NCBI RefSeq assembly: GCF_017301635.1
Contig: NZ_CP071091.1
Location: 4,848,001-4,912,000 of the forward strand
DNA: 64,000 nt
Direction of reading: 5' to 3'
Source: Myxococcus landrumus
Lineage (GTDB): Bacteria; Myxococcota; Myxococcia; Myxococcales; Myxococcaceae
Made by a program: the position numbers and the translations under genes
Notes under the pieces: model-generated
Databases searched by the model: none
The model's input: the letters and a program-made list of their open reading frames with translations, nothing else
Told to the model about the DNA's origin: nothing
Part shown: positions 2,723 to 29,285 of the stretch, piece by piece
How positions within the stretch are numbered: position 1 is the stretch's first letter
Layout: every line of letters starts with the position of its first letter

Positions 2723-3889
2723 ATGGACTTCCGGAAGAAACTCGCCGCCCTGCTGCTCGCCCTGGCCGCCCCGGTGGCCGCGGCGCAGTCGCCGGGCGGC
2801 GCCCCGAAGCTGCCGGTGGGCTGGTACGTCACCGAGAGCGCGCCCAAGCGCTACGAGGCGGGGGTGGACACCTCCTCGCCCTGCGAGGGCAGCCGCAGCG
2901 CCTACCTGCGCTCGCTGACGCCGGACGAGGCCGGCTACGGCACCTTCATGCAGGCCTTCGGCGCGCAGGACTACCGTGGCAAGCGGCTGCGCTTCTCCGC
3001 CGCCATGCGCGTCAAGGACGTGGACGGCTGGGCGGGGCTCTGGATGCGGGTGGAAGGGCCAGACCCTAAGCAACCTCTCGCCTTCGACAACATGCAGTCG
3101 CGCGCGCTCGTCGGCTCGCGCGGGTGCAAGCGCCACGAAGTCGTGCTGGACGTCCCCAAGGAGGCCACCACCATCATGGCGGGCCTCATCATGAGCGGCA
3201 CCGGCCAGGCGTGGTTGGACGGCGTGCGCTTCGAGGTCGTGGACACCTCCGTCGCGGTGACGGACCTGCTCGCCTCGCGGCCCCTCGTCGCCAGCACGGG
3301 CCCCTCGGGCCTCGATGAAGCGACGGCCGTGTCCAAGAACAACCAGGTGCCCCTCGGCCGCGTGGGCGACGTCTGGTTCAACCACGGGCGCGTCGCGGCC
3401 GACAAGCCGTACACCCAGCGGACCGATGGCGTCTGGGTGAGCATCCTCTCGGAAGAGATCTACGAGCACGGCATCGAGGTGACGGGCACCTTCGGCCAGC
3501 GCCCCGTGGAGCTGAAGCTCAAGGCGGGCGGCGCGCGCACGCTCATCGAGGGCGTCTGGGGAAGTGACCCCGTCACCATCAGCATCACGCCCGCCGAGCT
3601 CACCATGAAGTGGGGACGGCTGACGCGCGAGCTGAAGCGGGACCGGACCGTGCCGGGAGACGGCACCTGCAACCGGTATCAGCGCAGCGACGGTCCCCGG
3701 GTCCTCGACCGGCTCGACATCTGTGGCGCCGCGCTGGGAACCCGGCCGCCTCCGGCGCAGCTCGTCCTGAGCTTCCTGGCCAACGGCTTCCGCGCCAACG
3801 TCCCTCCAGGCAACTTCCCCATCCCGCAGCCGCCCGTGCTCAGCCGCGAGGCGCTCGAGACGCAACGCGCGGCGACGCCGAAGGACTAG
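2723..3889 (+). CDS. Secreted protein with carbohydrate-binding-like N-terminal domain
   Basis: 388 residues. A clear Sec signal peptide (residues 1-21, positively charged start, LLLALAAPVAAAQ) is followed by a beta-rich domain (about 30-185) of the type GWYV...S, Y-GF-Q, RG..LRFSA.MRV..V.GWAGLWMRV, LDGV.FEVV. This resembles the carbohydrate-binding-like domain found in some bacterial regulators and secreted proteins. The C-terminal half (about 200-388) is not recognised. It lies 11 bp after the anti-sigma gene and is probably in the same operon, which suggests it is an envelope protein connected with the sigma pathway. Function unknown. Confidence 0.75.
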   Translation: MDFRKKLAALLLALAAPVAAAQSPGGAPKLPVGWYVTESAPKRYEAGVDTSSPCEGSRSAYLRSLTPDEAGYGTFMQAFGAQDYRGKRLRFSAAMRVKDVDGWAGLWMRVEGPDPKQPLAFDNMQSRALVGSRGCKRHEVVLDVPKEATTIMAGLIMSGTGQAWLDGVRFEVVDTSVAVTDLLASRPLVASTGPSGLDEATAVSKNNQVPLGRVGDVWFNHGRVAADKPYTQRTDGVWVSILSEEIYEHGIEVTGTFGQRPVELKLKAGGARTLIEGVWGSDPVTISITPAELTMKWGRLTRELKRDRTVPGDGTCNRYQRSDGPRVLDRLDICGAALGTRPPPAQLVLSFLANGFRANVPPGNFPIPQPPVLSREALETQRAATPKD

Positions 3890-3956
3890 ACGACACCCTC
3901 GCGGAAGACCCAGGGGCCCCGCGCTCTGCGCGAGGGCCCCGTCCCGCGAGAGGACT

Positions 3957-5144
3957 TCAGAAAGCGAAGTCCCGCTCCAGCGTCTCGGTTCCAGCCTGCA
4001 CCGTGAGGTGGGCGGAGCGCGCGCCCGTGGCGGACGCGGACGAGAGGTCGAACGCCAGGCCCTCCGGGCCCGACGTGGGCTTGAGCGAAGGCCGGCCCGG
4101 ACTGAGGAACACCGCCGCCGTCACCGTCCGCCCGGACAAGGGCTGCACCAACAAGCGAACACGTTGACGCTCGCGAACGAGCACCACGCGAAAGTCCCTG
4201 CGCTCCTCCAACACCTCGCGCGACTCCGGATGGCGCGCCGCTGAGGGGCGCTGCGACACCGGGGCGCGGGAAGAACGCGCGGCACGCGTCACGCCCGCCT
4301 CGCCCTCTTCCATCTCCAGGGCATCTTCAATCGCGTCGTCACCTTCGCCCAAGGCCAGCACCGCCTGGGCGCACTCGCCACAGCGCGCGGTGTGCGCGTC
4401 CACGCGCTCGCGCTCATCGGCGGACATCAGGCCCATGTCGAAGCGCCACAGGTCATCCTGCGTGAGGTGGCGGCGGGGTGGAGCGTCCACGGGCGCGGCA
4501 TCCGCGATGTCCGCCCGGCACTCGACACAGCCCTGAAGGTGGGAAGAAGACGTCTGGGGTCCGCCCGTCCACGTGGCCACCAGGTCATCGCAGCCCGCTC
4601 GGGATGAGAACCACCAGGCCTTCTCCTGCTCGGCGGGCTCGAGGAGGTCCAGCTCCTGCCGGCGCTGCGGATTGAGCGGGATGAACCAGCGCGCACGTGG
4701 GCGGAGCAACGAATCCAGGCTCCCGAGCGCCGACAGAAATGCGTCGCGACTCCGAGCCGCGTCACCTTGGAGGGGACCGTGGAGACCTTCCCAGGCGGCC
4801 AGGGCCACCGCCGCGGAGGCGGCACGGTCCCGGGCGGCAAGTCCGTCCAGCGCGGAGGCCCTCCACACCTCGACCTCCTCCCCGCCATCCAGCACCACTT
4901 CCATCGCTTCTTCCGCTGCTCTCAACAGCACGGGCTGGAGAGCTTGGGGTTTCTGCGCTTGAAGCCATGTCTCGACCGCCGCTCGACCGAGGCCCCGGAG
5001 GGCCGCCTCCACACCTTCGGTCCCCATCCGGGTCGCCCGCCTCAACAGGTCCCCGGCAGCTTCGAGGACGGCCCCTGGAGCGGTCGTCGCCTCGGAGAGC
5101 TGAGAGCGACGGGTAGCGTAGCGAGACATGGCATCGATGTTCAT
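3957..5144 (-). CDS. Zinc-finger, anti-sigma-like protein paired with a sigma factor
   Basis: 395 residues, no signal peptide and no convincing membrane helix. Two Cys motifs are visible: a GCVECRAD segment near the middle and, after a helix with RRHLTQDDLWRFD, an HTARCGECA motif of the zf-HC2 (HxxxCxxC) type. The N-terminal third is alanine- and leucine-rich and helical. The C-terminal region (about 300-395) is beta-rich. It lies 46 bp downstream of a sigma-70 family gene on the same strand, so it is inferred to be a soluble regulator of that sigma factor. The soluble build distinguishes it from the membrane-bound anti-sigma factor at 2.2 kb. Confidence 0.72.
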   Translation of the reverse strand: MNIDAMSRYATRRSQLSEATTAPGAVLEAAGDLLRRATRMGTEGVEAALRGLGRAAVETWLQAQKPQALQPVLLRAAEEAMEVVLDGGEEVEVWRASALDGLAARDRAASAAVALAAWEGLHGPLQGDAARSRDAFLSALGSLDSLLRPRARWFIPLNPQRRQELDLLEPAEQEKAWWFSSRAGCDDLVATWTGGPQTSSSHLQGCVECRADIADAAPVDAPPRRHLTQDDLWRFDMGLMSADERERVDAHTARCGECAQAVLALGEGDDAIEDALEMEEGEAGVTRAARSSRAPVSQRPSAARHPESREVLEERRDFRVVLVRERQRVRLLVQPLSGRTVTAAVFLSPGRPSLKPTSGPEGLAFDLSSASATGARSAHLTVQAGTETLERDFAF

Positions 5145-5190
5145 GAATTCATTCCTCCTGAAAACCCCGGGGTGTTGCCGGGAAGGAGGC

Positions 5191-5862
5191 TCACGCTTCC
5201 TCCCCGCGTGGTGCTTCGCGCTGGAGATCCAGCAGGTAGAGCTTCAAGTAGGCCTGGGCGCGGCTGACGCGCTTGTACGAGTTGACCACGGTGATGTTCA
5301 GGCGACGGGCGCATTCCTCGTGGTCCTCTACGTCCTCGTGGTGGTACAGCTCCCATGCCGAGGCTTCCTTGGGGTGCTCCTGCTGGAGTCGTGCGAACGC
5401 GGCCCAGTACAGCTCCTGGGCGTCCGCCCGCTCCTCGGTCCTTCGGCCCATCTCCATCGCGCGAGCGCGCTCCGAAGGTGGCTCTTCCATGGCGTCATCG
5501 GGGTCCGACGGAGGCGCCGCGAGCTCCTCGCGGTGCCGCCGGTAGAAGTCGATGGCCACGTGCTTGACGATGCGCAGGAAGAACGTCTTGGGAGACGCAC
5601 TCCGGCCCGGCATCTGCTGGGAGACGCCACGGAACTGGTCCAACCCACGGTCGATGAACTTGCCGACCGCGTCTTGGTAGAGCTCGTCCGCGTCCGCTGG
5701 GGACCCGCGTCCGTAGCTCGACTGAATCTTGCTGATGACGTACCGGGCAGGCCGGCCCCATCGCTGAACCAACGTACCGAGTGGGCCTCCAATGGGCTCA
5801 CCCGTGGCGCGGCGGCGAACCACCTCCGCGAACAATTCGTCATCCGAGAGCTGCTCGTACAC
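5191..5862 (-). CDS. Sigma-70 family (ECF-like) RNA polymerase sigma factor
   Basis: 223 residues. Region 2 is visible around 55-110 (ADELYQDAVGKFIDRG, then FFLRIVKHVAIDFYRRHREE, the classic 2.3/2.4-type helix). A C-terminal helical region follows (about 145-215: ALYWAAF, ECARRLNITVVNSYKRVSRAQ), corresponding to a divergent region 4 with helix-turn-helix. An acidic linker (SDPDDAMEEPPSERA) separates them. The ATG at 5862 starts a leftward operon with the zinc-finger protein 46 bp downstream. Divergent region 4 sequences of this kind are common in myxobacterial sigma paralogues; targets cannot be inferred. Confidence 0.82.
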   Translation of the reverse strand: MYEQLSDDELFAEVVRRRATGEPIGGPLGTLVQRWGRPARYVISKIQSSYGRGSPADADELYQDAVGKFIDRGLDQFRGVSQQMPGRSASPKTFFLRIVKHVAIDFYRRHREELAAPPSDPDDAMEEPPSERARAMEMGRRTEERADAQELYWAAFARLQQEHPKEASAWELYHHEDVEDHEECARRLNITVVNSYKRVSRAQAYLKLYLLDLQREAPRGEEA

Positions 5863-6136
5863 CGGAAGGACCTGAGGGCTGTGCCCGGAGAACCGCCCCG
5901 GGAGATGGGGTTACAGGGATGTGGCGCGGCAAGGTACCACGTTGGCATCCGCAGGCAGCCTCCGAGTGGAGCAGGAGGCCCTGGCCGCCCGGACAACCGG
6001 ACAGCAAGGCCTCCAGGAGCCCCGACCCGGCCGACGCCAGTTTCCTGACAAATCATCCCTCAGAGGAGGGCGGGCGGGGGAGCGGGAAATGGCCCGTCAG
6101 GAAACCCGGAAGTCCGCGTCCCTGGCCGCACTGCTT

Positions 6137-6275
6137 TCGAGCGCCCGGCAGGAAGGCCCCACAAGCCTTGGTTCGATTCCAAAAACCACCCTCGGGTGGC
6201 TTTCGCCGGTGGTCCGGCACTGAACTGATAATTCAGCCCTCCGGCCTCCCAACTCGGGCGCTCATCTTCTTTCCA
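6137..6275 (+). ncRNA. Bacterial Y RNA, YrlA-like, with permuted tRNA-like module (copy 1)
   Basis: Structured RNA read from base pairing. The ends pair as a perfect 9-bp stem, 6139-6147 with 6255-6263, then an internal loop (GCA against AACT), then 6151-6158 with 6243-6250 (one mismatch). Inside lie, in this order, a T arm (6168-6171 with 6179-6182, loop TTCGATT), an acceptor-like hairpin closed by a CTCG tetraloop (6186-6190 with 6195-6199), a D arm (6205-6207 with 6216-6218, loop containing GG) and a perfect anticodon-like arm (6220-6224 with 6232-6236, loop CTGATAA). So the 3' half of a tRNA precedes the 5' half, as in YrlA Y RNAs that bind Ro60/Rsr. A second copy with the same plan precedes rsr. 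A pyrimidine-rich tail follows. The exact ends are inferred. Confidence 0.8.
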
Positions 6276-6287
6276 AGGAACCGTGTC

Positions 6288-6995
6288 ATGTCCCCCCGCA
6301 CCATCGTCATCGGAGACCTCCATGGCTGCCATGACGAGGCCCTGGAGCTGCTCGCCAAGGTGGGCGCCACCTCCAGCGACCGGGTCATCTTCGCCGGGGA
6401 CCTGGTCGACCGGGGCCCGAAGCGGCGCGAGTGCGTGGAGCTGGCCATGCGGCACGAGGCCGTCCTCGGCAACCACGAGGAGACCCAGCTCCAGCAGCGC
6501 CACCGCGCCGCGGAGCGCCTGACACCGGACCACCTGGAGACGCGTCAGGTGCTGGAGCCCGAGCACTTCGAGTGGATGGCCCGGCTCCCCCACTACCTCC
6601 GGCTGCCAGAGCACAATGCCATCGTCGTGCACGCCGGCATGATGCCCGGACGGCCCGTCGAGGCGCAGGACCCGTACCACCTGCTCCATGCCCAGTGCAT
6701 CCAGCCCCCGACGAAGAAGAGCTACTGGCCCTCCAAGGCACCGGCGGACTGGAAGTTCTGGACCCACTACTGGCAAGGGCCGGAGCGGGTCATCTTCGGG
6801 CACACCGTCTTCGACAAGCCCCTCGTCACCGAGTACGCGGTGGGCATCGACACCGGCTGCGTGTACGGCCGCTCATTGACCGCGGTGGTGCTGCCCACCT
6901 GGGAGCTGGTCTCCGTCCCCGCACGGAAGACCTACCGGGGCGGCAAGGACGTGGCGAAGTTCCCGATTCACGGCGACGTGTGCGTCTACTCCTAG
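6288..6995 (+). CDS. Calcineurin-like metallophosphoesterase (PrpE/ApaH/Pnkp-phosphatase type)
   Basis: 235 residues. All metal-binding motifs of the family are visible: GDLHGC (9-14), GDLVDRGP (37-44), GNHE (61-64), VVHAGMMP, and a late GHT (FGHT). These place two metal ions for phosphoester hydrolysis. Relatives include protein serine/threonine phosphatases, diadenosine tetraphosphatases and the phosphatase domain of bacterial RNA-repair enzyme Pnkp. Placement between two Y RNA genes and upstream of rsr suggests, by inference only, an RNA-end or nucleotide substrate. The ATG at 6288 has AAGGAA upstream, starting in the tail of the first Y RNA, so the two may share a transcript. Confidence 0.85.
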   Translation: MSPRTIVIGDLHGCHDEALELLAKVGATSSDRVIFAGDLVDRGPKRRECVELAMRHEAVLGNHEETQLQQRHRAAERLTPDHLETRQVLEPEHFEWMARLPHYLRLPEHNAIVVHAGMMPGRPVEAQDPYHLLHAQCIQPPTKKSYWPSKAPADWKFWTHYWQGPERVIFGHTVFDKPLVTEYAVGIDTGCVYGRSLTAVVLPTWELVSVPARKTYRGGKDVAKFPIHGDVCVYS

Positions 6996-7040
6996 ACGTC
7001 CGCGTTCGCTGAAGGCACCGCCTCGAATCCCAACGGATTC

Positions 7041-7180
7041 GCGCCCGGCCGACGGGGCCAGACACGCCTGAGAGATGCGGGTTCGACTCCCGCCGGGACC
7101 GTCAGGTCCCGTAGTTCAATTGGCAGAACACTGGACACTCAATCCAAGCAGCATCGGCCTCGTCACTCGGGCGCATTTTT
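7041..7180 (+). ncRNA. Bacterial Y RNA, YrlA-like, with permuted tRNA-like module (copy 2)
   Basis: The ends pair: 7041-7047 with 7168-7174 (perfect 7 bp), a 3x3 internal loop (GCC/ACT), then 7051-7059 with 7156-7164 (9 bp with one G-U). Inside are a T arm (7077-7081 with 7089-7093, loop TTCGACT), an acceptor-like stem (7094-7100 with 7105-7111, perfect 7 bp, capped by GTCA), TA, a D arm (7114-7117 with 7126-7129, loop AATTGGCA) and a weaker anticodon-like arm (7132-7135 with 7143-7146). The stem sequence GGCCGACGG on the 5' strand facing GTCACT on the 3' strand resembles the Ro60-binding stem of Y RNAs. A TTTTT run follows at 7176-7180. It lies 158 bp before rsr. The capped acceptor stem and A in place of the loop U33 argue against a working tRNA. 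Confidence 0.88.
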
Positions 7181-7337
7181 CTTTCCTCTCTCCTCACATC
7201 ACAGCTTCGCGCGGGTGGCCGTGCCTCGAGCACGCCAAGGCCCCCGTGCGTTCCACGCGCGGTGCACTCCCCTGACACCGGATGCCAGGGGTCCGCCCCG
7301 CGCCTGACCCGCCGCACGTCCCGAAAGGGGGACTCCC

Positions 7338-9101
7338 ATGTCGACGACCCAGAACAGCACCCTGATTCCCGAGACGCAGCGAGGCCCCGCCGAGCGACTG
7401 CTGGACCTGGTGCTCAGCGGCTCCGCGCATCTGTGGCACAACCGGCCGGGCCTGGACGTGAATGGCACCTGGGTCGCCGCGGCCTACGCCACGCCGGCGC
7501 AGCGCACGGTGGGCAAGCCGGTGAAGCCCGGCCTCTTCGTGCCCGCGGCGGTGAAGCTCTACCGGCAGCTCCTGGACATCTACCAGCTCAACTCGGTGCT
7601 GATGGCGCACTTCGCCTCATACGCGCTGACGCAGACGGACTGGCGTGACCTGAAGGTGGCCACGTGCGCCCTGATGCTGGTGCAGAGCCATGCCGGTCTT
7701 CCCGTGAAGGGGGACGGCGGCGAGGTGGCGTTCCACGACGACGACTGGCGCGCCATTGGCGAGGCCATGGTGCTGCACTACGAGCGCAAGTCCACGCGCA
7801 TGCTCACGCCCAAGGCGGTGCTGCGAGTCGCCGAGCTGCTCGAGCAGCCGGAGATCGCGCGCCTCAACCGCGAGGCGGGCTTCGGTGACCCGGCGTCGCG
7901 CAAGCCGCCCATGGGCCGCTGGAAGCGCGTGGCGGCCCGGTGGCTCGCCGCGCGTGAGGCCAACGTGTCGATGCTCCAGGGCCTCGTGAAGGCTGGCTAC
8001 AAGGAGACGCTGAAGAAGCTGGCTCGCAAGGCGGGGTACAAGCCGCGCGCGCAGGGCTTCTTCGAGGTGCTCGGCTGGAAGCAGAAGCAGGCGGAGAGCG
8101 GGCACCGCACGGTGGGCCTCAACGGGCTGACGCTGGTCAAGCGCGAGCGCTTCGACGGGCTGTCGGAGGCGGAGATCTGCGAGTGGATCGAGCACGAGCG
8201 GCTCTCCTACAAGGAGGTCGTGGGACGACTGCCGCAGGACCTGGGGATGACTCCGGCCATCATGGCGGCGCTCCTGCCCTCGCTGTCGGACCGTGACCTG
8301 CGACTCATGACGCCCACGCTCGAGGAGCTGGGGTTGCTGGCGGAGCCCACGGTCCGCACGCGCTGGGAGAAGGCCATCCAGACGGCGACGGACCAGCGGG
8401 CGTTGAACATCGCGAAGAACGTGCGCAGCGACGTGCTGCGCCAGAAGCTGGAGGAGGCCAGCGACAACGCCGCCCGAAAGGCCGTGGAGGAGGCGACGGC
8501 GGAGACCGACGTGCGAGTGATGTTCCTCATCGACAAGTCGGGCTCCATGGAGGGGGCCATCGAGAACTCGAAGGAGGCGCTCGCGCGCATCCTCGCGGGC
8601 TTCCCGATGGAGAAGCTGCACATCGCGGCGTTCGACACGACGGGCACCGTCCTCAAGCCCAAGGCGTCCAACCGCACGGCGGTCCAGCACATGCTCGCGG
8701 GGCTGAAGGCGTCGGGAGGCACGGCGCACGCGGCCGGCGTGCTCGCGCTGCACCGAAGCGGCGTGCGGGTGCCCGAGGGGGCGAAGCTGGTGGTCATCGT
8801 GGTGGGCGACGAGGCGGGTGAGGGGGGTGACCAGTTCGCCCGTGTCTTCCGCGACTGCGGCTACTCGGTGGCGGCGCTGGCGTTGCTGGTGAGCGTCGCG
8901 GGAGCCCGTGGCAACACGGTCCGCACCTGCTCGAGCCAGCTCCGTGTGCCCTTCAGCGAGGTCAACGTGGACCAGTTCTCGGACCCCTACCAGGTCCCTC
9001 GGGTGCTCAAGGCGCTGATGGATGCGCCGACGCTGCCCGGTGCCAGCCAGTCCGGATGGGTGGAGCGGGTGATGCGCACGCCGCTGCTGAAGGTGGCGTG
9101 A
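7338..9101 (+). CDS. rsr: Ro60 orthologue Rsr (TROVE domain plus vWA domain)
   Basis: 587 residues. The N-terminal TROVE module (about 1-370) consists of helical HEAT-like repeats forming the RNA-binding ring; the C-terminal von Willebrand A domain (about 390-575) has an intact MIDAS DxSxS motif (Asp399, DKSGSM). Ro60 proteins bind the ends of misfolded RNAs in the ring cavity and Y RNAs on the outside; in Deinococcus and Salmonella Rsr works with exoribonucleases and Y RNAs in RNA processing and stress. The ATG at 7338 is preceded by an AGGGGGA ribosome-binding site. A Y RNA gene lies immediately upstream and another 1.2 kb upstream, which strongly supports the assignment. Confidence 0.95.
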   Translation: MSTTQNSTLIPETQRGPAERLLDLVLSGSAHLWHNRPGLDVNGTWVAAAYATPAQRTVGKPVKPGLFVPAAVKLYRQLLDIYQLNSVLMAHFASYALTQTDWRDLKVATCALMLVQSHAGLPVKGDGGEVAFHDDDWRAIGEAMVLHYERKSTRMLTPKAVLRVAELLEQPEIARLNREAGFGDPASRKPPMGRWKRVAARWLAAREANVSMLQGLVKAGYKETLKKLARKAGYKPRAQGFFEVLGWKQKQAESGHRTVGLNGLTLVKRERFDGLSEAEICEWIEHERLSYKEVVGRLPQDLGMTPAIMAALLPSLSDRDLRLMTPTLEELGLLAEPTVRTRWEKAIQTATDQRALNIAKNVRSDVLRQKLEEASDNAARKAVEEATAETDVRVMFLIDKSGSMEGAIENSKEALARILAGFPMEKLHIAAFDTTGTVLKPKASNRTAVQHMLAGLKASGGTAHAAGVLALHRSGVRVPEGAKLVVIVVGDEAGEGGDQFARVFRDCGYSVAALALLVSVAGARGNTVRTCSSQLRVPFSEVNVDQFSDPYQVPRVLKALMDAPTLPGASQSGWVERVMRTPLLKVA

Positions 9102-9135
9102 ACCCGAAGTCATCGCGGTGAAGCAAGGAGGCGTC

Positions 9136-10110
9136 GTGGACTACCGGAAGTTCCTCGGCAAGACAGAGTCGGTGGTGCTGCCATACCTGGGCAGCGGCAC
9201 CGTGGACACCGCCACGCGACGCCTCCGTGTCACCACCCCTGTCACTCCAGGGTGGTGGCGCTTCGAGCTCCGGGGCCGCGACGCCACCGCGCGTGAGCCG
9301 GCCGGGCCCGAGGGCCTGGACGGGCTTCCTCGCGTGCGGGGCTTCTTGTGGGGGACCCGGCTGGTGCGCGAGGGCGCGGTGGCCGAGCCCCTGGAGTTGA
9401 TGCCGGAGGAGCAGCCGCCCGTGCTCGCGCCCGTGAGTGCGCGGCGTTGGCATGACGGCACCCTCCTCTTCGACAGCGTCGAGTTCGAGGGTGAGGCGGA
9501 GGACCTCGCCCGACGTGCCATGGAAGCGGGACAGCCGCTCTCCTCGGTGAAGGGCGTGAGCGCGCCGCTGCGGGCGGCCTTCGGCTATGTGCTGCTGGAG
9601 GCGGCCTCGCGAGCGATGGGCATCTGGTTCGTGCCCGCGGAGACGAGGACGCGGGTGCTGGGAATCGCCGAGCGAGGTCGGGCCGAGGCGGAGGAGTGTC
9701 TGCGGACGCTGCTGCGCGAGCGTGAAGCCCATCAACGCGCGCTCGCGGTCCGGCAGGAGCACGAGCGCCATGCGGCGCTGGTCGTCGAGGCTCGCGACCG
9801 GGTGAAGCGGGAGCACCTCCAGCACCGTCCCCAGACGCGGCGCGGAGACCTCTCTCGAGCGGAGGCCGCCTTGCACAGAGCAGGAGCGCGGCTGCTGAAC
9901 CATCGCCAGCTGGGGGGAAACCAGTTGGAGGTGACGTACTCCTTCATGGAGGAGCGCTTCATCTCCATCGTCGATGCGGACTCGCTCCAGGTGGTCGACG
10001 CGGGGCTGTGCCTCGCGGGAGCGGACAGCGCGGTGACGCTGGAGAGTCTTCCTTCCGTCATCCGCGAGGCCATCGACACGGGAGTCCTGGTCGTCACCCG
10101 GCATGGGTGA
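9136..10110 (+). CDS. Unknown protein in the rsr operon
   Basis: 324 residues; I do not recognise a domain. An N-terminal beta-rich portion (about 1-110, containing PGWWRFELRGR) is followed by a segment with RRWHDGTLLFDSVEFE, a long charged coiled-coil-like helix (about 175-240, rich in Arg/Glu/His) and a C-terminal beta segment (FMEERFISIVDADSLQVVDAGLCLAG). The start is a GTG at 9136 with an AAGGAGG site 4 bases upstream; another in-frame GTG at 9118 lies before this site and is less likely. It follows rsr by 34 bp and runs straight into the JAB gene, so co-expression with Rsr is very likely. Confidence 0.8.
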   Translation: MDYRKFLGKTESVVLPYLGSGTVDTATRRLRVTTPVTPGWWRFELRGRDATAREPAGPEGLDGLPRVRGFLWGTRLVREGAVAEPLELMPEEQPPVLAPVSARRWHDGTLLFDSVEFEGEAEDLARRAMEAGQPLSSVKGVSAPLRAAFGYVLLEAASRAMGIWFVPAETRTRVLGIAERGRAEAEECLRTLLREREAHQRALAVRQEHERHAALVVEARDRVKREHLQHRPQTRRGDLSRAEAALHRAGARLLNHRQLGGNQLEVTYSFMEERFISIVDADSLQVVDAGLCLAGADSAVTLESLPSVIREAIDTGVLVVTRHG

Positions 10111-25040: not shown

Positions 25041-28000
25041 CTACAGGTCGACGACGGGGAGCACGTCCCCCATCTCCCCCGCGTTGTCTCCGCGGCTCTC
25101 CCTATCGCCGAGCCCGAGCTGACCCGCGAAGTTGCCGCCCCAGCACTTGACGCTGCCTTCGTCGAAGGTGGCGCACGTATGGGAGGTGCCAGCCTCGAGC
25201 GAGGTCACGGCACGGCCCGTCCCGAGATTGACGCGCGGCAGCGCGTCGCCCATCTGGCCCGGCCCGACTCCGATATGCCACGAATAGCCGAGCCCGAGCT
25301 CGCCCCAGTCGTTGCAGCCCCAGCACTTGACGGAGCCGTCATCCAGGAGTGCGCACGTGTGGATGGCACCGACGGTGAGCGCCAGCGCGGTCCTCCCCGT
25401 CCCCAGGAGGACGGACGGCAGTGCGTCTCCCATCTCCTCCGGCCCATCTCCGCGGTTCTGTGAGTCGCCGAGCCCGAGCTGGCCATGGTCGTTGCTGCCC
25501 CAGCACTTGACGGAGCCGTCATCGAGGAGCGCACACGTGGAGAACTCCCGGGTGGCGAGTGCCTTCGCGGTCCGCCCCGTGCCAAGACGCATCGAGGCCA
25601 ACGCATCGCCCATCTCGCCAGGACCATCACCGAGCTGCGCGAAGTAGCCAAGCCCGAGCTGCCCCCTGGAGCTGGTGCCCCAGCACTTGACGGAGTCGTC
25701 ATCCAGGAGCGCGCACGTATGCACGGCACCCGCGGCAAGCGCCTTCGCGGTCCGCCCCGTGCCGAGATTCACCCGTGGGAGCGCGTCGCCCATCTCACCC
25801 GGGCCATCTCCGCGGTCCTGCTTGTCGCCGAGCCCGAGCTGGCCCCAGTCATTGCGCCCCCAGCACTTGACCTCGCCATTGTCGAGAATGGCGCACACGT
25901 GCTCGCTCCCGCTGACCACTGACTTCGCGGTCCGCCCCGTGCCGAGGTCTATCCAGGGCAGCGAATCACCCATCTCGTCCGGAGCATCTCCGCGGTTCGA
26001 CATATCGCCGAGCCCGAGCTGGCCCACGGAGTTCAAACCCCAGCACTTGACCCCGCCACTCTCGAACAGTGCGCAGGTGAAGGACTCCCCCAGGCTCAGC
26101 GCCGTCACCCGCTGCCCCATCCCAAGGCGGACGAAGGGAAGGAAGCCGCCCATCTGGTTGTCGCGTCCGTCGCCTCGGCTGTTCGTATGTTCGAGCCCAA
26201 GCTGCCCCGAGGTGTTCCCACCCCAGCACTTCACACGTCCATCCGTGAAGACCGCACAGGTGTGCCTCCGACCGGCGGAGACCGACTTCAAGGCATAGTC
26301 ACGAACGCGCACGGAGACGAAGCCGGTCCCGACTGCTCCGTGGATGTCCGACACCTGGTACTCGAAGCTCGCGGTGCCCACGAAGCCAGGCGCCGGAGTG
26401 AACCGCACGAGCTGACCGTCGAGTGCGACCACGCCATTGTGTGCGTTCGCGACCTGGCTCACCGTCATCGAGTCCCCCTCCTGATCGCTGTCATTGAGGA
26501 GGAGCGTCGGCACGGGGATGCGCAGCTCCGCCCCGACGGTGGCGACAGCGGAATCCGCGACGCCCCTGGGTGCGTCATTCACGGAGTTGACGGTGACAGA
26601 CACCTTCGCGTTGCTTGTGTAGCGTCCGTCGCTGACCCTGTACTCAAACGTCACCGACCCGAAGAAGTTCGCCTCCGGGGTGAAGGTGATGTTGCCGTCA
26701 GCCAGCGTCACGCTGCCACGAGTGGCCGAGAAGACGTCCTCCACCCTGAGGATATCGCCGTCACCATCCGTGTCATTGGCGACGAGCGTGGCGGACGGAA
26801 TGACCAGCACGGTGTCCTCGTCCGTGCTCACGGCATCGTCGACGGCAACAGGCCGCTCGGTCACGAGGACCGTCACCCGCGTGGTGCTGGTCCCCCCCGT
26901 CCAGTTCCTGGCGGTGTACTCGAACGTCGCCGTCCCAGTGAAGTTCGCCTCTGGGCTGAAGTCGATGTCGCCACCGTCAATCTTCACGCTGCAATGGGTC
27001 GCATTGCGGACGGCGGTGATGATGAGCACCCCCCTATCCAAATTGATGTCGTTCTCAGTGAGAGTGTCTCTCCGGATGAACTGTCCGGAGTTCTTGATGG
27101 CGTACACGGTGTCCGCGACGGCAACGGGAGCATCACTCACGGAATTCACCGTGAGCGCCACCTTCGCCGCGCTGGTGCTGTGCCCATCGCTGACCGTGTA
27201 CTCGAAGCCCGCATCCCCGAAGTAGTTCTCCTCCGGGGTGAAAGTGACGTTGCCGCCAGACAGTGTCACGGTGCCATGGGTCGCCGAGCCGACGCCTGTC
27301 ACCGAGAGCGTGTCGCCCTCGATATCGGTGTCGTTGGCGAGGAGCATGGCCGTCGGGATGACCCTCACGACATCCTCATCCAGGCTCACGTCATCCTTCA
27401 CCGCGGAGGGCGCATCATTCACGGGGGTGACGGTGATGGTCACCGGCGCGATGCTGGCGGAGGTCCCATCACTGACCATGTACTCGAACGTCACCGTCCC
27501 GAAGAAGTTCGCGTCGGGAGTGAAGGTGACGTTGCCGTGGGCCCACTCGAAGGCGCCCTGAGCAGGCCCTCTGACGGACGCCACACGGAGGGTATCGCCG
27601 TCGGCATCCGTGTCGTTGGCGAGGAGCGTGGTGCCCGGGATGACCAGCACGGAGTCCTCTGTCATGGACAGGGAATCAGCGACCGCCTTGGGGACATCGG
27701 GCATGGGGCTGACTGTGACGGTCACCTTCCCGGTGTCCGTCTGGCGCCCATCCCCCACCACGTACTCGAACGTCGCGGTTCCGGAGAAGTCCGCCTCCGG
27801 AGCGAAGCGGATGGTGCCACCCTCCAGCATCGTCACGCTGCCATGGGTCGCGGAGCCAACGGAGAGGACCCTGAGCCCATCGCCGTCCGCGTCGAAGTCG
27901 TTGGAGACCAGCGATGTGTCCTGAATGAACGCACTGGCATCCTCGTCGGTCGTCGCCTGGTCATCGACGGCGGACGGGGCCACGTTGCTCGGAACCGGAG

Positions 28001-28118
28001 GAGGTCTCTCCTCTTCCCTACATGCGGCGAGCGCCACGGCGACAAGAAGGACGGCCCCAAGGCTCGGCCACCGCACGGCGGAAAGACGCGAGTACAGACG
28101 AACAAGTTGCTGCTTCAC
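25041..28118 (-). CDS. Large surface lipoprotein: six cadherin-like domains and seven RCC1 repeats
   Basis: 1025 residues. GTG 28118 is preceded by GAGGGGG, and the protein starts with a lipoprotein signal (LVAVALAAC, Cys33). Six cadherin-like domains of about 93 residues follow (about 45-605), each with an A.ADxxxx.ED opening, LLxNDxDxDGDxLxV and a FEYxVSDG end; the Asp-rich motifs should bind calcium. The C-terminal part (about 605-1025) holds seven RCC1-type repeats of 60 residues with HTCALLDDGSVKCWG and QLGLGD cores, likely a seven-bladed propeller. It probably acts in adhesion or cell contact on the outer surface. The frame is open further upstream but the lipobox and ribosome site fix the start. 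Confidence 0.9.
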   Translation of the reverse strand: MKQQLVRLYSRLSAVRWPSLGAVLLVAVALAACREEERPPPVPSNVAPSAVDDQATTDEDASAFIQDTSLVSNDFDADGDGLRVLSVGSATHGSVTMLEGGTIRFAPEADFSGTATFEYVVGDGRQTDTGKVTVTVSPMPDVPKAVADSLSMTEDSVLVIPGTTLLANDTDADGDTLRVASVRGPAQGAFEWAHGNVTFTPDANFFGTVTFEYMVSDGTSASIAPVTITVTPVNDAPSAVKDDVSLDEDVVRVIPTAMLLANDTDIEGDTLSVTGVGSATHGTVTLSGGNVTFTPEENYFGDAGFEYTVSDGHSTSAAKVALTVNSVSDAPVAVADTVYAIKNSGQFIRRDTLTENDINLDRGVLIITAVRNATHCSVKIDGGDIDFSPEANFTGTATFEYTARNWTGGTSTTRVTVLVTERPVAVDDAVSTDEDTVLVIPSATLVANDTDGDGDILRVEDVFSATRGSVTLADGNITFTPEANFFGSVTFEYRVSDGRYTSNAKVSVTVNSVNDAPRGVADSAVATVGAELRIPVPTLLLNDSDQEGDSMTVSQVANAHNGVVALDGQLVRFTPAPGFVGTASFEYQVSDIHGAVGTGFVSVRVRDYALKSVSAGRRHTCAVFTDGRVKCWGGNTSGQLGLEHTNSRGDGRDNQMGGFLPFVRLGMGQRVTALSLGESFTCALFESGGVKCWGLNSVGQLGLGDMSNRGDAPDEMGDSLPWIDLGTGRTAKSVVSGSEHVCAILDNGEVKCWGRNDWGQLGLGDKQDRGDGPGEMGDALPRVNLGTGRTAKALAAGAVHTCALLDDDSVKCWGTSSRGQLGLGYFAQLGDGPGEMGDALASMRLGTGRTAKALATREFSTCALLDDGSVKCWGSNDHGQLGLGDSQNRGDGPEEMGDALPSVLLGTGRTALALTVGAIHTCALLDDGSVKCWGCNDWGELGLGYSWHIGVGPGQMGDALPRVNLGTGRAVTSLEAGTSHTCATFDEGSVKCWGGNFAGQLGLGDRESRGDNAGEMGDVLPVVDL
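25052..26311 (-). repeat. Seven in-frame tandem repeats of exactly 180 bp (RCC1 blades)
   Basis: The anchor cagcacttga recurs at 25141, 25321, 25501, 25681, 25861, 26041 and 26221, always 180 bp apart. Units encode one 60-residue RCC1 blade each. The outer units are the most diverged; central ones are nearly identical over long stretches, which favours recombination between units. Confidence 0.9.
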
Positions 28119-28324
28119 CCAGCCCCCTCGGAGAAAGAAGCCCCCCTTCCGCGAAATCCGGAGGGGTGCTGCCCCCATAACGGAGCCCGGCGACACAAGT
28201 CGCAGACACTCGATACGACGCCGCCCCCGGGGTCTCCAGGCCACCGATGCCCCGGGGTAGTGGGAGACCTGGCGCACCGCGCCCCAGGTCACACCAGGCC
28301 CCCCAGCCGGCCCGTGCCGCTGGC

Positions 28325-28597
28325 TCAGAGGCAGATGTTGCAGTCCTGGCTGATGATGCCCGCGCTGTACCAGGTGCCGTCGAGCCTGCGACACATGAGC
28401 TCCTTGTAGTTGCCCTTGGTCGGACCACAGGCGCCGCAGAGCGAGTACCTGCGCGAAGTCTCTCCTGGCTGACAGCTTGGGGCCAAGGCACCTTCTTGTA
28501 TGCCCATTGTGTCTTCCGCGAGTCCGTCATCGCTGACGCCTCCGCAGCCGAGCGCCAGGCCCACCGCCAACAGGACACCGAACGTGATGCGTTGCAT
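28325..28597 (-). CDS. Small cysteine-containing lipoprotein
   Basis: 90 residues from ATG 28597. A lipoprotein signal (GVLLAVGLALGC, Cys18) is followed by an acidic linker and a short domain with six cysteines (SCQPGE, LCGACG, LMC, DCNIC), probably disulphide-bonded. No family is recognised. The alternative start 28609 adds four residues and lacks a ribosome site. Such small Cys-rich lipoproteins are frequent in myxobacteria; function unknown. Confidence 0.68.
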   Translation of the reverse strand: MQRITFGVLLAVGLALGCGGVSDDGLAEDTMGIQEGALAPSCQPGETSRRYSLCGACGPTKGNYKELMCRRLDGTWYSAGIISQDCNICL

Positions 28598-28790: not shown

Positions 28791-29285
28791 ATGCGCCGTC
28801 TCTCTGCCCTCCCGCTCCTGCTCGCCCTCACCGTGATGCTGGGCGCGTGTGACCGCTATGACCGCCCGGGCACACCGGTGCCGGAGACCCTGCGGGCCGA
28901 GACGCTGGAGGGAATGCACATCGACCGGGAGGCGCTGCTGGGCCGCCCCTGGGTCATCAACGTGTGGGCCCCAGGCTGACACGCCTGTGCTCGGGAGTTG
29001 CCCGAGCTCGAAGCCCTGAGGAGCCAGTACGAGGCGCGCGGCGTCGGATTCCTCGCGCTCTCGCTCAATCCCAGCGAGGAGCGAAACCGCCAGACGGCGG
29101 CTGAGCTGGGGGTGCACATGACCGTGGCCACGGCGAAGGGAGAGGTGCTGGGCCCGCTGCGCATCTCCACCGTGCCCGCCACGGTCTTCATCAACCGGGA
29201 TGGCGTGGTGGTGGCGGCCGTCAACGGCGAGCGCTCGCGTGAGTTCTACGCGCGGCGACTGGAGGCGCTGCTCGCCGCGCCGTAG
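28791..29285 (+). CDS. TlpA-like thioredoxin lipoprotein, candidate selenoprotein (in-frame TGA at 28977)
   Basis: 165 codons in a single frame interrupted by TGA at codon 63. The frame before it gives a lipoprotein signal (VMLGAC, Cys20) and the start of a thioredoxin fold (PWVINVWAPG); the frame after it continues HACARELPEL and the rest of a TlpA/AhpC-TSA domain, including the cis-Pro (STVPATVFINRDG). In homologues this spot is WCxxC: the TGA stands exactly at the first redox cysteine, giving U-H-A-C if read as selenocysteine. A hairpin with a GU-containing loop lies 16 bases after the TGA. Alternatives: a nonsense mutation, or a sequencing error in a Cys codon (TGC/TGT). The C-terminal part has no separate good start. 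Confidence 0.72.
28987..29009 (+). promoter_or_regulatory. SECIS-like hairpin after the in-frame TGA
   Basis: 28990-28995 (CTCGGG) pairs with 29001-29006 (CCCGAG) around the loop AGTTG; G28989-C29007 extends it, then a T-T mismatch and G28987-C29009. The loop starts 16 bases after the TGA, inside the 16-37 range known for bacterial SECIS elements, and contains the GU that SelB recognises. Confidence 0.5.

Follow-up and report, generated by a model that had tools for sequence, protein, structure and literature searches.

A candidate selenocysteine-containing TlpA/ResA-like lipoprotein in Myxococcus landrumus and its relatives, with a conserved in-frame TGA and a bSECIS-type hairpin

In this study, one gene in the window, that is, the whole 64-kb stretch of Myxococcus landrumus DNA that was analysed, was investigated as a candidate selenoprotein gene. 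Evidence at the level of sequence and model supports one undivided gene, conservation of the TGA, selection on the hairpin, the presence of a full selenocysteine (Sec) machinery and a thioredoxin fold, and with them the candidate selenoprotein reading of the original prediction. The UGA at 28977-28979 on the + strand is almost certainly decoded as Sec, as judged from sequence comparison, and we hold with high confidence to the whole explanation, namely an exported thioredoxin-fold selenoprotein lipoprotein that would act as a Sec-based thiol(selenol)-disulfide oxidoreductase. This would provide a conserved selenoprotein candidate, together with a clear SECIS consensus, for aerobic soil bacteria (Myxococcus and kin).

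The gene and its predicted product

The coding sequence of this TlpA/ResA-like probable lipoprotein, recognized from sequence, profile matches and pN/pS, lies at 28791-29285 (+), starts with ATG, ends with TAG and gives 164 residues, one of them selenocysteine, when its single in-frame TGA (codon 63) is read through. The two parts had been predicted to share one frame and to make a complete TlpA-like protein, which agrees with the 164-residue frame and its TlpA/ResA matches. In the open-reading-frame list under table 11, only a 95-residue remainder from the TTG at 28998 appears; a plain list of this kind truncates such genes at the TGA. The N-terminus, read by eye, is hydrophobic and is followed by the lipobox L-G-A-C, whose Cys20 (codon at 28848-28850, +; at least 90% conserved among 22 sequences) is the probable site of lipid attachment by the lipobox rule. 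The TGA falls exactly on the first Cys of the CxxC site, as had been claimed, since in alignments with TlpA/ResA proteins U63-H-A-C66 occupies the CxxC position, U63 matching the first Cys and C66 the second. The codon of Cys66, the resolving Cys of U-x-x-C, stands at 28986-28988 (+) and is invariant in 22/22 sequences, as is the V128-P129 motif; its Pro129 (29175-29177, +) we take by homology to be the cis-Pro.

AhpC-TSA (41.8 bits against a gathering score of 26) and Redoxin (40.7 against 26.6) were the top Pfam matches, and sequence matches to solved structures comprised ResA, DsbF and other TlpA-like proteins, DsbE among others. An AlphaFold2 model, built on an alignment of the window gene with 13 related loci (12 of the Sec type and one of the Cys type), reached a pLDDT of 89.9, and its top matches among solved structures were ResA-type, with a TM of 0.73-0.75 by query length for the ResA chains. 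In the model, a helix (64-83) directly follows U63, so that helix 1 of a thioredoxin fold begins at the redox pair. Rfam and ARAGORN gave no matches over the 64-kb window. Upstream, at 25041-28394 (-), we also observed a 1117-residue open reading frame with repeated cadherin-like and RCC1-like stretches, read by eye.

Proposed function and gene neighbourhood

The proposed mechanism would begin with SelB and Sec-tRNA(Sec) binding the hairpin just 3' of the UGA, by which the UGA would be decoded as Sec. The small thioredoxin-fold lipoprotein would then be exported to act outside the cytoplasm, where U63 would be the attacking residue on a disulfide or persulfide, the selenenylsulfide would be resolved by C66, and electrons from a membrane protein of the DsbD/CcdA type would recharge the lipoprotein. 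We infer that Sec is actually inserted, that the protein is lipidated and that it is likely an exported selenol-disulfide reductase, its electrons probably being supplied by a DsbD/CcdA protein. For the DsbD-fed reductase role as such, the balance is even; sulfur substrates are put forward tentatively, sulfur or persulfide compounds being our best guess.

With reference to gene neighbourhoods, 25 flank sets from 24 genomes were compared (L088 and L140 being one genome), and a gene for a DsbD-type protein with a thioredoxin domain, or the end of such a gene, was found within 5 kb in four of them, in two different gene orders: a CcdA-thioredoxin gene near L136 and L137, and a DsbD gene near L133 and L084. 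The last of these is a 77-residue end beside a contig end, has no Pfam match alone and is 65% identical to that of L133. Three loci in 3 of the 24 genomes (L136, L137 and L135) lie amid sulfur-type genes, namely 5'-nucleotidase, rhodanese, DsrE, metallo-beta-lactamase fold and Sulf_transp, not every type being present at each locus; we read the 5'-nucleotidase as SoxB-like and the metallo-beta-lactamase fold protein as persulfide dioxygenase-like. For CcdA, only a partial match was obtained in the L135 genome. Neither the window nor the flanks of close Myxococcus members (L080, L082 and L139) showed a DsbD gene nearby, and no sulfur-cluster neighbour was seen in the window or the close kin examined. 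The M. landrumus genome holds three DsbD_TM proteins and, 1.1 Mb from the Sec gene, part of a sulfur cluster (about G000:C1:5965.4-5971.7 kb).

This own-genome cluster corresponds to L167 (about 3412-9655) and comprises a Cons_hypoth698-like gene, a metallo-beta-lactamase fold and a SoxB-like 5'-nucleotidase, as well as rhodanese, CcdA-thioredoxin and anti-sigma-like genes, all recognized from their resemblance to proteins of L136 and L137. The Sec gene of relatives is found inside or beside clusters like L167. A link of the Sec gene to its direct neighbours in the window was weighed and then dropped.

Among the alternatives, the one that survives best accepts Sec insertion and makes the product a peroxidase or an oxidant-sensing lipoprotein in place of a disulfide or persulfide reductase. 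It is encouraged by the AhpC/TSA and Redoxin matches at the top of the Pfam list and by the Prx-like UxxC selenoproteins listed in PMC13188914; however, the same source gives TxxU for peroxiredoxin, the motif here is UxxC, the nearest structures are ResA-type, and DsbD-type neighbours occur in 4 of the 24 genomes. We consider this alternative unlikely, yet deserving of attention.

Selenocysteine machinery and distribution in the genus

The M. landrumus genome, whose nearest named relatives are from Myxococcus and Corallococcus, is a single 10.37 Mb contig, and the search for selA, selB, selC and selD suggested with the original prediction found all of them in it, so the refutation then envisaged, a genome without the machinery, was not borne out. 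SelA scored 474 bits, SelD 386 bits and SelB, with its pieces, 322 bits, while the tRNA-Sec (65.4 bits, UCA anticodon) lies outside the window; the next match to the tRNA-Sec model, at 45.8 bits and below the cut-off, is presumably a serine tRNA. As for other Sec clients in this genome, no TIGR01553 formate dehydrogenase was found at E 1e-100, and none of three TIGR01591-related frames was above the cut-off or had an internal stop.

Across the 27 genomes of the genus, SelA is universal (27/27), the lipoprotein is present in 12 and, at the threshold applied, a TGA-bearing formate dehydrogenase in 15, with three genomes having both and three neither; the two clients are thus nearly complementary (Fisher p 0.007, uncorrected for kinship). 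For Myxococcus genomes lacking the Sec-type formate dehydrogenase, this would fit the idea, which we regard as doubtful, that the Sec machinery is kept largely for one exported lipoprotein, an extracytoplasmic sulfur/persulfide reductase. If true, an aerobic predator would maintain the whole Sec machinery mainly for a dedicated selenium-based reductase. It was also observed that G015, of which the assembly is fragmented, G020 and G026 possess SelA and tRNA-Sec, and that neither the lipoprotein nor a Sec-type formate dehydrogenase was found in them at the thresholds applied.

The occurrence in 12 of the 27 genomes also bears on a second functional alternative, that the protein acts, as ResA and CcmG do, in the maturation of cytochrome c, with Sec simply taking the place of Cys. 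Although ResA, and DsbE among others, are the top matches among solved structures and NCBIfam models, no NCBIfam model reaches its cut-off for the lipoprotein, with ResA proper (NF002854) at 59.1 bits against 170 and DsbE at 28.3 against 123, far below in both cases, and so patchy a presence would be odd for a maturation factor. Such a role is quite improbable in our judgement.

The hairpin after the TGA

A bSECIS hairpin at 28989-29007 (+) was recognized from pairing, covariation and published constraints. Its stem consists of seven pairs (GCUCGGG / CCCGAGC) and its loop, AGUUG at 28996-29000, stands 16 nt from the TGA, so that the GU-containing loop and the right spacing of the original prediction hold, while the stem of six pairs has to be corrected to seven. 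Nothing sets this hairpin apart in its folding energy (z -1.16, with 28 of 200 shuffles folding equally well); the energy was dropped as proof of a SECIS, and the case therefore rests on conservation.

The alignment of the hairpin is gapless from the TGA and includes 28 Sec rows, 20 of them distinct, in which columns 13-19 pair with 25-31. Paired cells made up 97.1% of 140, and shifting the partner by one column cut the pairing to 50-59%. The covariation score was 0.193 against 0.094 in shuffles, none of the 500 being as high. Of the five measures compared with shuffles, two, both of them counts, were unexceptional (140/500 and 112/500); these shuffles do not keep kinship, and their results are not probabilities. 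RNAalifold recovered the identical seven pairs from the same rows. All seven are formed in 23 rows and six in the remaining five (L102, L107, L136, L143 and L144), so that 28/28 keep six or seven, and the loop reads AGUU followed by G or U in 28/28.

Two-sided changes were seen in two of the seven pairs, 14-30 (CG, UA, GC, UG) and 15-29 (UA, CG). In L116 and L123, a change from Glu to Gly on one arm is accompanied by a silent change on the other arm, perhaps a single event since the two are sisters in the tree. Without L143 and L144, both pairs are still two-sided through L135/L137 and L116/L123, and as the former are nearly identical and the latter tree sisters, the independent compensatory events are few.

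Codon choice within the hairpin is likewise fixed. The Leu codon of the loop is TTG in 23/23 Leu rows and the Phe codon TTT in 5/5 Phe rows, whereas in 37 open reading frames of the window, chosen by a GC3 rule, TTG makes up 8.2% of the Leu codons and TTT 6.3% of the Phe codons; other hairpin codons are equally uniform (CGG 28/28, GAG 27/27, CCC 28/28).

Published constraints on bSECIS elements, as given in PMC13188914 (section 5), comprise a loop of 3-9 nt with G in the first two loop positions, a stem of 4-16 pairs, a distance of 16-37 nt from the UGA and an energy of at most -7.5 kcal/mol. In the SECIS check proposed with the original prediction, carried out on the 19-nt hairpin with a custom script in place of bSECISearch, all 28 Sec rows agreed with these constraints. 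The four Cys rows fail the energy limit (-7.4, -4.2, -7.2 and -5.6), L122 and L132 narrowly. These two rows, from genomes without SelA, keep six of the seven pairs, so part of the pairing is explained by coding constraint (the protein R-E-L/F-P-E favours it) or by descent from a Sec form.

When a SECIS model, R1, was run over the 10.37 Mb genome, with the best 150 of 19,603 first-look candidates scored, the window site was the one strong match (E 7.5e-11), the next having E 1.8. Three weak matches (E 1.8 to 6.2), each in a protein frame that looked ordinary by eye, were judged to be chance; near two of them, L147 and L148, there is a TGA, but in another frame. It is very probable that the hairpin at 28989-29007 represents a SECIS.

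Conservation of the TGA and exchange with cysteine

When 195 genomes of the phylum were searched, family members bearing TGA turned up in 28 and Cys-bearing ones in four, all at no less than 139 bits, and the next match below the family scored 96.5 bits (up to 19 candidates per genome being scored). In the set of 80 relatives, own genome included, 22 have a homologue with one TGA at codon 63. The expectation that homologues carry U or Cys at this position is thus matched by U in 28 and Cys in four of the 32, the latter being L122 (G152), L128 (G154), L132 (G090) and L022 (G031). Because 27 other genomes have the same TGA, sequencing error or a chance nonsense mutation is very unlikely, in keeping with the argument first made from the TGA and hairpin of this one genome.

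SelA is present in 28/28 Sec genomes against one of the four Cys genomes (G031); SelA is lacking in three of the 32 genomes, all of them of the Cys type, a distribution whose chance, computed by hand and uncorrected for kinship, is 4/4960. In the 80 relatives alone, the link between SelA and the Sec form does not reach significance (p 0.057), owing to the wide occurrence of SelA in that set. Sequence comparison supports the view that Sec/Cys exchange goes with the presence or absence of SelA. A tRNA-Sec above the cut-off was found in 21 of the 22 Sec genomes, the other being G068, which is 86% complete. As a separate observation, the SelA match of G049, a genome with the Sec lipoprotein, lies in two pieces (G049:C147:88442-89645), possibly a frameshift or assembly error.

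The tree contains six label changes, with 9/33 inner branches well supported, and neither Sec nor Cys emerges from it as the earlier state. In one case, the genes around the Cys form of G031 are arranged like those around the Sec form of G028: L133 (Cys) and L084 (Sec) have four neighbours in common in the same order; therefore, one gene place takes either form. Apart from the remaining rows, a second, more distant branch (family f9) comprises L143 and L144 (G055 and G060), which have Sec and the AGUUG hairpin, and L025 (G064; WSPACFAC), which has Cys.

A hairpin after a stop can boost readthrough, and it could accordingly be supposed that a near-cognate tRNA (Trp or Cys) reads the UGA, or that the stop is regulated, with the hairpin as a selenium-free readthrough signal. 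The full Sec machinery in the genome, the location of three of the four Cys forms in SelA-less genomes and the fit of the hairpin to the bSECIS model all argue against this, and we regard it as very improbable.

Over the 11 closest members, mean pN/pS was 0.35 before the TGA, where the fast-changing signal peptide is included, and 0.16 after it; purifying selection after the TGA is at least as strong as before, so both halves form one protein. A pseudogene, an ordinary TlpA gene with a nonsense mutation, would explain why the table 11 frame is split by the TGA with only the 95-residue remainder listed, but is hardly credible against this pN/pS, the occurrence of this TGA across several families, in 28 genomes, and a hairpin under selection.

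A Sec-decoded lipoprotein would offer an easy test bed, being small and having natural counterparts of the Cys type in three relatives that lack SelA, and Myxococcus is a genus with good genetics. G028 and G031, which hold a Sec and a Cys form, respectively, at one shared gene place, provide one natural comparison.

Comparison with known systems

The lipoprotein shares its fold, the place of its active site and its size with the Cys-type TlpA, ResA and DsbE (CcmG) proteins, but has Sec for the attacking Cys and a SECIS within the coding sequence. In terms of how it may work, SoxW, a thioredoxin of the periplasm that receives electrons from SoxV/CcdA during thiosulfate oxidation, is a candidate likeness, since some members have SoxB-like, rhodanese, DsrE, Sulf_transp and CcdA-thioredoxin genes nearby; this neighbourhood is found in 3 of the 24 genomes, and no membership is claimed. 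The model NF041054 (WAxxUGC_long), which is ResA-like and, from its name, has U at the first redox position as here, differs in having U-G-C where the present protein has U-x-x-C (UHAC) and in its 354 model positions; the lipoprotein scored 25.2 bits against its cut-off of 300.

The string 'myxo' is absent from the main text of PMC13188914, and literature searches on myxobacterial selenoproteins and selenocysteine turned up no paper describing the lipoprotein, judging by titles and abstract openings. UxxC selenoproteins of the TlpA/thiol-disulfide isomerase kind have already been published (PMC1088965; PMC13188914). The closest of these is the thiol-disulfide isomerase-like selenoprotein from the Sargasso Sea (PMC1088965; PMC13188914, Table 1), which is UxxC like the lipoprotein here and is placed under cd02966 in the review table; going by the table descriptions, the present set is set apart from it as myxobacterial and lipoprotein-like. 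The UxxC selenoprotein kind is therefore known, and the myxobacterial lipoprotein is new as a member of it.
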